Shown one piece after another: positions 10,757 through 53,391 of a stretch of 64,000 bases of DNA (position 1 is its first letter; each line of letters opens with the position of its first letter). Origin of the DNA: Lacticaseibacillus mingshuiensis. GTDB lineage: Bacteria > Bacillota > Bacilli > Lactobacillales > Lactobacillaceae. The position numbers and the translations under genes were made by a program. The stretch is taken from the NCBI RefSeq assembly GCF_016861785.1, contig NZ_BOLS01000001.1, positions 248,001-312,000 on the forward strand, written 5' to 3'. Under the pieces are notes generated by a model that saw only the letters and a program-made list of their open reading frames with translations, had not been told where the DNA came from and ran no database searches.

Positions 10757-10783
10757 ATTTTGAATGCGAGTTCAAAAAAGCCC

Positions 10784-10897
10784 CATCTTCTTTATCTAGA
10801 CTATACTATCGGCCTCGGAATCACACCGAGTCAACCGCGCACTGCGCGGGTCGTGGGCTTTCACCACCGGTCGGGAATTTCACCCTGCCCCTGAAGA
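10784..10897 (-). promoter_or_regulatory. FMN riboswitch (RFN element)
   Basis: Read on the minus strand, the leader of ribU contains the RFN consensus: AGGGGCAGGGTGAAATTCCC, then GACCGGTGGT, AAAGCCCACGA, a variable GC-rich hairpin, then TTGACTCGGTGTGATTCCGA and GGCCGATAGTATAGTC, with short closing arms TCTTC and GAAGA. It binds flavin mononucleotide and here should switch off riboflavin uptake by transcription termination. Confidence 0.95.
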
Positions 10898-10961
10898 CGA
10901 ACCATATTTTATTTTATGAGCATTGCTCACTAAAAGATAGTAACCCAAGAAGCTGATGAAA

Positions 10962-50094: not shown

Positions 50095-50631
50095 ATGGCA
50101 GAGATCGAATACGACGCAATGGGCGCCCATGAAGCGGAAGCAAAGGCATACTTTATTGAGCACTGGGGGTCCGACAGCCTGATCATCTCGGCAGGCGACT
50201 ATCATTTCGACGACCTCAACGGGTTGGTCGCGCTGGAAGACGGACAAGTGGTCGGGCTCCTCACCTACGCCGTGCACGGCAACGCGATGGCTGTCGTCTC
50301 GCTCAACTCGGTCCGCAATGGCCGCGGCATCGGCAAAGAGCTCCTGGCCCTCGCAGAAGACATGGCCCGCGGACTCGGCGAAACGAAGATGATGGTCTCG
50401 ATCATGAATGATAACATGCAGGCGCTCGGCTTTTTCCAGCGCCAAGGGTATCGCATGGCCAAGATCTTGCGTGGATCCCTGGACATGGCGCGCCAGCGCA
50501 AACCCGAGATTCCGCTGGTCGGCATGGACGACATTCCGCTTCACGATGAGGTCCTCCTGTCAAAAGTGTTGCCACAAGACGCGCCACTCGACATTCCGCC
50601 GGTCCCCGTCACGCCGGAAAGCGACGATTAA
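50095..50631 (+). CDS. GNAT family N-acetyltransferase
   Basis: A 178-residue acetyltransferase. Motif A for acetyl-CoA binding reads SLNSVRNGRGIGKELLALAE (the RxGxG turn is NGRGIG), followed by MVSIMNDNMQALGFFQRQGY, the motif B pattern of an N-acetyltransferase acting on small molecules or proteins. A C-terminal extension of about 50 residues is rich in Asp and Pro. The acceptor substrate is unknown. It starts after AAGGAAAGGG and is followed by its own strong terminator. Confidence 0.85.
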   Translation: MAEIEYDAMGAHEAEAKAYFIEHWGSDSLIISAGDYHFDDLNGLVALEDGQVVGLLTYAVHGNAMAVVSLNSVRNGRGIGKELLALAEDMARGLGETKMMVSIMNDNMQALGFFQRQGYRMAKILRGSLDMARQRKPEIPLVGMDDIPLHDEVLLSKVLPQDAPLDIPPVPVTPESDD

Positions 50632-50821: not shown

Positions 50822-51142
50822 ATGGCTTGGTTCACATTGATTCTAGCGGGGTTGTTTGAATGTTTCTGGGCAACGATGCTCAAGCTCAGTCAGGGCTTTT
50901 CGGTGTTGCGGTTCTCGGTGCTCACGGTGGTCGGGATGATCGCGAGTTTTCTACTGCTCGCCCATGCGACACGCGCGCTGCCGCTGTCGCTGGCGTACCC
51001 GATCTGGACGGGCATCGGCGCAGTCGGAGCGGTGCTCATCGGGGTCGTATGGTTCGGCGACCGGCTGACACCCGCCACGTGGTTCTTTGTGGCATTGTTG
51101 TTGATCGGCATCGTGGGCCTGAAACTGACGAGTCATGCCTGA
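50822..51142 (+). CDS. SMR family exporter, SugE/Gdx type
   Basis: A 106-residue protein with four transmembrane helices. The conserved glutamate of helix 1 is present (Glu13 in LAGLFECFWATMLKLSQGF), and helix 3 reads LAYPIWTGIGAVGAVLIGVV, closer to SugE/Gdx than to EmrE. Members of that branch export guanidinium. No guanidine riboswitch is visible upstream and no second SMR subunit adjoins, so a homodimer is likely. Quaternary ammonium export cannot be excluded. Start after AGAGGAGG. Confidence 0.85.
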   Translation: MAWFTLILAGLFECFWATMLKLSQGFSVLRFSVLTVVGMIASFLLLAHATRALPLSLAYPIWTGIGAVGAVLIGVVWFGDRLTPATWFFVALLLIGIVGLKLTSHA

Positions 51143-51165
51143 TGAGGAAAATAAGTACAGCAAAC

Positions 51166-51483
51166 AGGCCGCCGAGGTTCTAATTTTTCGCCAGCCTGTT
51201 TGGTGCCGGTGGGCCGCGGTTCTCCCCTTCCCCTTGGGTACAGGAAAGAAACCCGTCTCATCTTATTCAATTGCCATCGCGCGGTATGTACCCCGGCCGC
51301 TGGCTTAAAACTCCGGACTTCCCGTCACGCGTGCATTGATGGTAGGAGGCAGCCCATGCTCCCTAATGTCTGATCTGAACACCATCAATGGTTGCGAGCC
51401 GCAAAGGAGCCGGCCGTTCGTCGCTTTTGCCTGGCAGATCAACGACATGCCTGCCGCCAAGTGCGAGCTTCTAAACTTTTAGT
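51166..51483 (-). ncRNA. Candidate small RNA with its own promoter
   Basis: No ORF is supported on either strand, but the minus strand has a strong promoter and folds well. Stems include ATTGATGGT with ACCATCAAT (51327-51399 region), GCCAGCGG with CCGC-GCGA-TGGC, and a terminal AAACAGGC with GCCTGTTT at the 3' side (51166-51205). The transcript would be about 310 nt and converge with the SMR gene. It does not show the signature sequences of tmRNA, SRP RNA or RNase P RNA. A 6S RNA is possible but not demonstrated. Boundaries are approximate. Confidence 0.4.
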
Positions 51484-51489
51484 AAGTGA

Positions 51490-51519
51490 AGTATAGATCC
51501 GACTATTTATTTTTGTCAA
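51490..51519 (-). promoter_or_regulatory. Strong promoter of the candidate small RNA
   Basis: Minus-strand -35 TTGACA (51514-51519) and -10 TATACT (51490-51495) with an 18-bp spacer, just after the uvrC terminator and pointing away from uvrC into a region without ORFs. Confidence 0.75.
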
Positions 51520-51542
51520 GTAGGCGCTTTCAAATTTTTACG

Positions 51543-51590
51543 CAAAAATACGCGGCGGCTCAGTCAATTTTCTGAGCCGCCGCGTATTCT
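51543..51590 (-). terminator. Terminator of uvrC
   Basis: TACGCGGCGGCTCAG and CTGAGCCGCCGCGTA are perfect 15-bp arms with an 8-nt loop, followed on the minus strand by TTTTTGCG. Confidence 0.93.
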
Positions 51591-51609: not shown

Positions 51610-53391
51610 TTACTGCAGCGAGACCTTGATCGCCTGCGCGACTTGCTTGCTGATGCCCAGCGCCTGCAGGTCCTCGACGCTGGCTTCCTTGATGTGATTG
51701 ACCGTTTTGAACTGCCGCAGCAGCTTCGTCCGCGTTTTCGGTCCCACGCCTTGAATGGTCTCCAGCCGACTTGCCAGGGAATTCTTATTGCGCAGCTGCC
51801 GGTGGAACGTGATGGCAAAACGATGCACCTCATCTTGAATGCGCGTCAGTAAGTAAAAGCCCTGCGACTGCGGATCTAGGGCGATCGGTTCGTCATGGTC
51901 CCCATACAGCAGCCCCGCGGTTCGGTGCTTGTCGTTTTTCACCATCCCCGCCACTGGAATGAACAGGTTCAGCTCGTTTTCAAGCACATCTTTGACCGCG
52001 TTCATTTCGATGTCGCCGCCATCCATCAAGATCAGATCCGGCAACGGCGCGTGTTCCTTGAGCAGCCGCGTGTACCGGCGGCGAATGACTTCCCGCGTGT
52101 TCGCGTCTTCGTTGGCGCTGTGGTCGCCGTCATCCTGCGCCAACTTGTACTTGCGATAGTTGCTCTTTTCCGGCTGACCATCGACAAATTGCACCATCGC
52201 CGAAACGGGGTCCGCCCCTTGGATATGACTGTGGTCAAACGCCTCGATCACATGCCCGTCTGGCAGCCCGAGCGCCTCAAAGATCTCGTTTTGCGCGCCG
52301 ACCGTGGTGCGATTATCGAGTTCCAACAGACGGAATTTTTCCTCAAGTTTGATGCGCGCATTTTTCGCGGCGAGTTCCATCAAGGCCCGTTTTTCGCCGC
52401 GCTGCGGGGTGCGCACAGGAATGCCCAGCACCTGTTCCAGCACCGCATTGTTCATGCCTTCTGGGACCAGCACTTCCTTGGGCTTCACATTGTTTTTGCG
52501 ATCATAGAATTGCAGAATGAACGACTCGAATTCGTCCTCGGTCGAGCTTGCCACCGGAAACAGCCGCGACTCGCGTTTCATCAACCGCGCCTGGCGAATG
52601 AAAAACACTTGGATGCTCAGCCAGCCTTTGTCCATGTAAAAATTAAAAATATCGCGTTGCGTCTTATCATTTGAAATGATTTTCTGTTTCTCGACGGTCA
52701 CTTCGATGTAATGCAACTGATCGCGAATCTCAGCGGCCCGCTCAAATTGCAGCAAATGCGCGGCCTCATTCATCTGCCGCGTCAGCATTGACTTCACTTT
52801 CGCCGTGTTGCCGTCCAAAAAACTGCGAATCTTGCGGATCTGTTTGGCGTACTCTTCTTCAGGCACCGTGCGCCAGCACGCGCCAAGGCACTGGCCCATG
52901 TGGTAATACAGGCACGGCCGGCCCTGGAACCCATTGCAGCGCCGCAGCGGGTACACCTTTTGCAAAAAGTGCATCGTCTCTTCGGCCGCATAGATGTTGG
53001 GATATGGACCAAAATAATACGCGCCATCTTTTTTGACATCACCGGTGATCAACATCTTTGGGTCGCGTTCATTCGTGATCTTGATATACGGGTAGCCGGT
53101 CCCCTTTTTCAGCCGGATGTTGTAATACGGCTGCCACTTTTGAATCAGCGTGATCTCCAGCAAAAAGGCTTCCTTATCACTGGAGGTCACGATGTAATCG
53201 AAATCGGCGATCTGCGAGACCAGTTTGGCGGTCTTGCCATCGTGACTGCTCTTGAAATACGAGCGGACCCGATTTTTCAGATTCTTGGCCTTGCCGACAT
53301 AAATGATCTTGCCATTAATATCCTTCATTTGGTAGCTGCCCGGCGCATCAGGCAGCAGCGCCAGTTTGTGTTCGATATGCTCGGATGCCAT
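51610..53391 (-). CDS. uvrC: Excinuclease ABC subunit C
   Basis: A 593-residue nuclease that makes both incisions in nucleotide excision repair. The GIY-YIG domain comes first (GSYQMKDINGKIIYVGKAKN), the UVR motif around LLQFERAAEIRDQLHYIEVT binds UvrB, the RNase H-like half carries AFDHSHIQGADPV and LILMDGGDIEMN, and the helix-hairpin-helix ends the protein (LASRLETIQGVGPKTRTKLL). Start set at 53391, 7 bases after AAAGGGG. A LexA box lies over its transcription start. Confidence 0.97.
   Translation of the reverse strand: MASEHIEHKLALLPDAPGSYQMKDINGKIIYVGKAKNLKNRVRSYFKSSHDGKTAKLVSQIADFDYIVTSSDKEAFLLEITLIQKWQPYYNIRLKKGTGYPYIKITNERDPKMLITGDVKKDGAYYFGPYPNIYAAEETMHFLQKVYPLRRCNGFQGRPCLYYHMGQCLGACWRTVPEEEYAKQIRKIRSFLDGNTAKVKSMLTRQMNEAAHLLQFERAAEIRDQLHYIEVTVEKQKIISNDKTQRDIFNFYMDKGWLSIQVFFIRQARLMKRESRLFPVASSTEDEFESFILQFYDRKNNVKPKEVLVPEGMNNAVLEQVLGIPVRTPQRGEKRALMELAAKNARIKLEEKFRLLELDNRTTVGAQNEIFEALGLPDGHVIEAFDHSHIQGADPVSAMVQFVDGQPEKSNYRKYKLAQDDGDHSANEDANTREVIRRRYTRLLKEHAPLPDLILMDGGDIEMNAVKDVLENELNLFIPVAGMVKNDKHRTAGLLYGDHDEPIALDPQSQGFYLLTRIQDEVHRFAITFHRQLRNKNSLASRLETIQGVGPKTRTKLLRQFKTVNHIKEASVEDLQALGISKQVAQAIKVSLQ

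Follow-up and report, generated by a model that had tools for sequence, protein, structure and literature searches.

A three-copy family of predicted RNA genes in Lacticaseibacillus mingshuiensis and its sister species L. yichunensis

The convergent gap between uvrC (minus strand) and a gene for an SMR-family transporter (plus strand) in Lacticaseibacillus mingshuiensis holds a gene, one of a set of three paralogues, for an undescribed predicted RNA of about 325 nt, which we consider likely to be a trans-acting regulator. At the level of sequence the family has three copies in each of two species, constraint on both promoter and body, concerted evolution, and a distribution restricted to these two species among the genomes searched. 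From these properties we infer transcription, the ends of the transcript, action in trans and the type of target. The family is new to Rfam 15, and its kind, the multi-copy intergenic regulatory small RNA, is already known.

The gap lies in a stretch of 64 kb, here called the window, and its features are listed in Table 1. The gene upstream is presumably uvrC, the name that it also received in the initial annotation. The conserved element spans positions ~51158-51532 (~375 nt), slightly more than the 51166-51519 first assigned to it, and stops ~16 nt past the stop codon of the SMR gene. When the region downstream of uvrC was compared in 30 loci of the genus (one of them just 29 nt long), a GNAT-like gene was seen by eye to follow uvrC directly in several other members. 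Because the two genes seem to adjoin each other there, the lineage studied here appears to have gained both the RNA and the SMR transporter gene, the latter, by eye, as an insertion between uvrC and GNAT.

Table 1. Features of the RNA locus and of its two paralogous sites (positions in the window)
Feature	Position	Strand	Remarks
GNAT acetyltransferase gene	50095..50631	+	beyond SMR; Pfam PF00583, E 5e-12
SMR-family transporter gene	50822..51142	+	convergent neighbour; Pfam PF00893, E 6e-27
Predicted RNA, ~325 nt	51158..51483	-	three paralogues 93-94% identical, plus three orthologues
3'-terminal stem AAACAGGC...GCCTGTTTG	51158..51205	-	inverted repeat I3, 83% complementary; candidate terminator
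CCUCCU, anti-Shine-Dalgarno-like motif	51344..51349	-	in predicted RNA; same in all six copies
Most constrained 5' part of predicted RNA	51347..51483	-	96-99% identity in every pair
-10 box TATACT	51490..51495	-	inside invariant CGGATCTATACTTCACTTACTAAAAGTTTAGAAGCTC
-35 box TTGACA	51514..51519	-	invariant in six copies
Upstream box TGNAAGCGCNTNC	51520..51532	-	abuts -35 box; conserved
uvrC intrinsic terminator	51547..51588	-	17-nt arms, 100% complementary; T-run on minus strand; just upstream of RNA promoter
uvrC (name presumed)	51610..53391	-	upstream neighbour, same strand as RNA; translation; counterpart in 30/30 genus genomes
Copy A			between uvrC and SMR gene
Copy B			between aminotransferase gene and phosphodiesterase gene
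Copy C			between adenosine deaminase gene and GNAT gene

A 401-nt query against the whole genome revealed two further copies on two other contigs, with 93-94% identity, giving three in total. Among 30 genomes of the genus, only L. yichunensis was found to carry the element as well, also in three copies; these match contigs of Lacticaseibacillus yichunensis 33-1 letter for letter over 500 nt, flanks included. The three copies occupy three unrelated convergent intergenic sites, and all three sites are orthologous in L. yichunensis when paired by their flanks. At every site the upstream gene lies on the same strand as the RNA and the downstream gene is convergent. No same-strand gene follows directly at any of the three sites, and a role as leader or riboswitch was therefore rejected. 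The initial annotation had proposed that the RNA runs antisense towards the SMR exporter gene. This did not hold up, as the element ends shortly behind the SMR stop codon and the paralogues face the phosphodiesterase and GNAT genes; with neighbours that differ between paralogues, a role as SMR-specific antisense RNA was rejected.

Beside copy C, the adenosine deaminase (L003 1940-3037) is 94% identical to its counterpart in L. yichunensis and at most 58% to other genus genomes; for the aminotransferase beside copy B (L002 1939-3135) the values are 97% and at most 59%. It suggests that both genes were acquired in this lineage specifically. Downstream of copy B (L002 ~1240-1480) there are also ~200 extra bases with repeats of the GGGACAAA/TTTGTCCC type, which are absent from L. 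yichunensis.

The near-consensus TTGACA/TATACT promoter claimed at the outset was confirmed on the minus strand (51519-51490), where the two hexamers are separated by 18 nt, match 11/12 consensus bases and are conserved in all six copies. Such a promoter on its own is no better than chance, as a 4.5-kb scan found three promoter-like sites against 2.4 expected from shuffles; it rises above chance because it is conserved. The strong terminator reported for uvrC is likewise real, with perfect 17-bp arms. The upstream box that abuts -35 keeps its TG, AAGCGC, T and C in all six copies, and the bases beside them vary. We take this box to resemble a catabolite-response (cre) site, the site of CcpA, with an imperfect fit; a strict cre-like pattern had no match anywhere in the 64-kb window. 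A composite promoter pattern, GCGCNTNCTTGACA-N16-19-TATANT, was searched in 397 genomes of the family. It matched three times in this genome and three times in L. yichunensis, which are the six copies, and was absent from the other 395 genomes; a reversed control of the pattern gave zero in every genome shown.

Comparison of the copies separates the parts of the promoter clearly. The spacer between the -35 and -10 boxes is 42-58% identical between paralogues and 67-100% between orthologues, while the 16-nt block of upstream box and -35 hexamer retains 88-94% between paralogues and the 12-nt block CGGATCTATACT with the -10 box is identical in 15/15 pairwise comparisons. Boxes that are kept while the spacer drifts are the pattern expected from selection for transcription off the minus strand. 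Downstream of the promoter, the first ~145 transcribed bases are 96-99% identical between paralogues. The promoter and the edge of conservation served to predict where the RNA starts (~51483) and ends.

The constraint extends over the body of the element. Between orthologues, 54/1021 body sites differ (5.3%), and 9/480 sites in the 5' part, a count that includes the -10 region. For comparison, 244/1136 four-fold codon sites (21.5%) differ between the species in seven neighbouring gene pairs: SMR, two GNAT genes, part of uvrC, phosphodiesterase, aminotransferase and adenosine deaminase. This set left out frames that overlap the chosen genes in another frame or strand, or that were not identified. 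Flanking intergenic sites differ at 64/386 (16.6%), or at 43/332 (13%) without the downstream flank of site B, where 208 columns are gapped and the 21/54 substitutions are unreliable. The body has diverged significantly less than the four-fold sites (Fisher p 2e-29) and than all flanks (p 1e-10). Poor conservation outside the promoter, which had been named at the start as an outcome that would count against an RNA gene, was thus not seen. With both boxes kept, a constrained body and three paralogues, the independent minus-strand RNA gene first proposed at this locus is well supported. Because no relative was found outside the two sister species, the argument for function rests on one species comparison.

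An inserted T (alignment column 170) is present in 3/3 copies of L. yichunensis and in 0/3 copies of this species, a pattern that points to gene conversion within species. In the 3' half, L. yichunensis A and C share 97% identity with each other, vs 90% and 89% with their respective orthologues. The sites are old and separate, and their copies are thus being homogenised within each species; the homogenisation appears to stop at the -10 region.

The distribution was surveyed in increasingly broad genome sets, which overlap. Within the genus, 2/30 genomes carry the element (this genome and L. yichunensis); a 34-nt match in a third lies inside a protein gene and was set aside. A DNA search of 397 family genomes again gave the same two carriers. 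Nine genomes reached E ≤ 0.01 in that search, namely the two carriers and seven with matches of 23-41 nt, all of which were set aside. Open frames were listed for four of these seven loci (L006, L011, L012 and L016), and the other three (L013, L014 and L015) were read as sequence only. The matches in L006, L012 and L016 fall within long open frames. That in L011 is intergenic in a distant genus, covers 41 nt at 83% and has no promoter match, and was judged to be chance; it corresponds to the 5' end of the RNA and lies at positions 1501-1541, between genes that by eye resemble 6-phosphogluconate dehydrogenase and a transporter.

A sequence-only profile (R1) built from the six copies found the element in 2/201 family genomes. 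At E ≤ 1 it reported six genomes; four of these, apart from the two carriers, were weak and were set aside. Among the weak places, L058, L061 and L066 (a fourth weak place, in this genome) are inside long open frames, L059 is the L011 place again, and L060 was read as sequence only. The same two carriers were the only ones among 395 genomes of the order, and an exact 36-mer was found in L. yichunensis only in a scan of a genome collection. Searches of plasmids and phages gave no match to the RNA element, and neither did two exact patterns searched in viral contigs.

Three near-identical copies dispersed over convergent intergenic regions, restricted to two species and adjoining lineage-specific genes, could also represent a dispersed repeat or a MITE-like mobile element whose promoter is accidental and which does not function as RNA. 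All three sites are common to both species (the only two compared), so there is no sign of recent movement. Retention of both promoter boxes while the spacer drifted between copies, and constraint of the body by about four-fold between orthologues, also argue against a mobile element. Furthermore, flanked alignments inspected by eye displayed neither terminal inverted repeats nor target-site duplications, none of the three inverted repeats in the own-copy region spans the element, and the plasmid, phage and viral-contig searches were negative. We regard a mobile element as unlikely.

All three copies lie between convergent genes and have a stem on the side of the convergent gene, which raises another explanation: a cis-acting boundary, in which the conserved DNA would terminate or insulate convergent transcription, or would act as antisense on a local neighbour such as SMR. 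A boundary needs neither a conserved promoter nor ~325 nt under constraint; on either strand the T-tract of the stem is poor, and the neighbours differ at the three sites. This makes a local role in cis very improbable. For a predicted RNA gene, the same stem is of interest as a candidate terminator, since conservation ends just past it in all copies. Its T-tract is weak, and the 4.5-kb scan lists just a smaller stem of 6 pairs at this place.

The several long stems noted when the locus was first described are present in the predicted fold, but the minus strand folds only marginally better than shuffled sequences (z -1.86, 6/100 shuffles as good), compared with z -0.99 (16/100) for the plus strand. 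Sub-windows of 120 nt gave z-scores from +0.54 to -1.21. At the level of the alignment, the minus strand had z -1.76 (7/200 shuffles as good) and the plus strand z -1.57 (12/200). Compensatory changes were found at 0/104 predicted pairs, a test to which six near-identical sequences give little power. With no covariation and weak z-scores, we claim no RNA structure. The CCUCCU motif is mostly paired in the prediction, with a mean unpaired value of 0.06-0.72 across GCCUCCUACC.

The locus had been described as free of open reading frames, and this is nearly correct: it resembles no known protein, and what frames exist are short. On the minus strand, an ATG frame of 47 aa (51448-51305) is cut to 24 aa in L. 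yichunensis; the plus strand has a frame, also of 47 aa, that changes frame in the latter species. The inserted T alters the reading frames on both strands. Another plus-strand frame, behind AGGAGG (51344-51358), has just five residues and was set aside. The first 24 codons of the minus-strand frame are open in all six copies, and its three variable columns are all third codon positions, although three are too few to exclude chance. A short peptide or dual-function RNA, in which the minus-strand ATG frame MSLICQAKATNGRLLCGSQPL(M/I)VF is translated, would account for this. No Shine-Dalgarno sequence precedes the ATG (GGCGGCAGGC-ATG), the frame length differs through a fixed indel (24 aa in L. 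yichunensis vs 47-57 aa in this species), Pfam gave no match to the own-species frame, and the constraint reaches well past the frame. We consider translation of this frame quite improbable, and a protein product of the RNA locus is unlikely in general.

Known RNA families were searched with Rfam 15. At gathering score, the whole window gave nothing except an FMN riboswitch aptamer elsewhere (10781-10902, minus strand, 102.6 bits), and at E up to 10, a 541-nt region around the element gave only unrelated families below threshold. The RNA had initially resisted a fit to tmRNA, SRP RNA and RNase P RNA, with 6S RNA kept as a candidate. The former was borne out, and the latter lost its footing: none of RF00013, RNase P, tmRNA and SRP matched the 541-nt region at E up to 10, and RF00013 matched nowhere in this genome or in that of L. 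yichunensis. Origin as a diverged copy of 6S RNA or another known housekeeping RNA would agree with the length range, the independent promoter and the lack of an RF00013 match elsewhere in this genome; the absence of matches in the region and the presence of three paralogues render it highly improbable. Across the genus, RF00013 matched 11/30 genomes at E ≤ 1 and 0/30 over the Rfam cut-off. As all 6S-like matches in the genus are below cut-off, the absence of RF00013 here reflects the model more than a replacement. 6S RNA thus appears to be poorly covered by RF00013 in Lacticaseibacillus (L067-L072). The predicted RNA resembles 6S RNA as a stable, independently transcribed RNA, and differs from it in being longer, multi-copy and without an RF00013 match. 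In the open-access literature, no published description of this RNA was found.

The simplest account would be a dosage-amplified trans-acting RNA under a shared signal. The housekeeping sigma factor would transcribe the RNA from the minus strand, and the conserved box beside the -35 element probably controls this transcription. Gene conversion together with purifying selection would keep the copies nearly identical, as is expected for dosage copies of one trans-acting regulatory RNA. Its likeliest mode of action would be base-pairing with mRNAs, possibly at ribosome-binding sites through CCUCCU after structural rearrangement; we propose this mechanism tentatively, with protein binding as the main alternative.

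Two known systems invite comparison. LhrC1-5 of Listeria monocytogenes are five near-identical copies of 111-114 nt with UCCC motifs that bind target mRNA (PMC4132741). The likenesses are the almost identical intergenic copies, each with its own promoter, and a C-rich motif able to meet ribosome-binding sites. No sequence relation was found, in that the element has no Rfam match, and the RNA here is ~325 nt long, has three copies in two species only, and carries a CCUCCU motif predicted to be mostly paired. The csRNAs of streptococci, which belong to the CiaRH regulon, have 2-6 intergenic genes per genome, 51-202 nt long, with a CiaR-activated promoter (PMC3091779). They share with the present family several intergenic RNA genes with a common type of regulated promoter; here, by contrast, TGNAAGCGCNTNC is the conserved box and conversion homogenises the bodies.

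As for its history, the RNA family may have arisen or been acquired just before the species split, spread to three sites, and since been held in concert like rRNA genes, with conversion of the transcribed part ending at the -10 box and the promoter spacers free to drift. We offer this sequence of events as speculation, and a rather doubtful one.

Bacterial RNA genes that are young and confined to one lineage lack relatives, which makes them hard to recognise. The three copies, shared sites and two species of the present family constitute a rare internal control, which allows constraint, promoter selection and gene conversion to be read from sequence alone. Should the resemblance to a cre site prove genuine, carbon catabolite control in a lactic acid bacterium would have an RNA output encoded by three genes. 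If transcribed, it would provide a compact system for the birth and upkeep of a new multi-copy RNA regulator.
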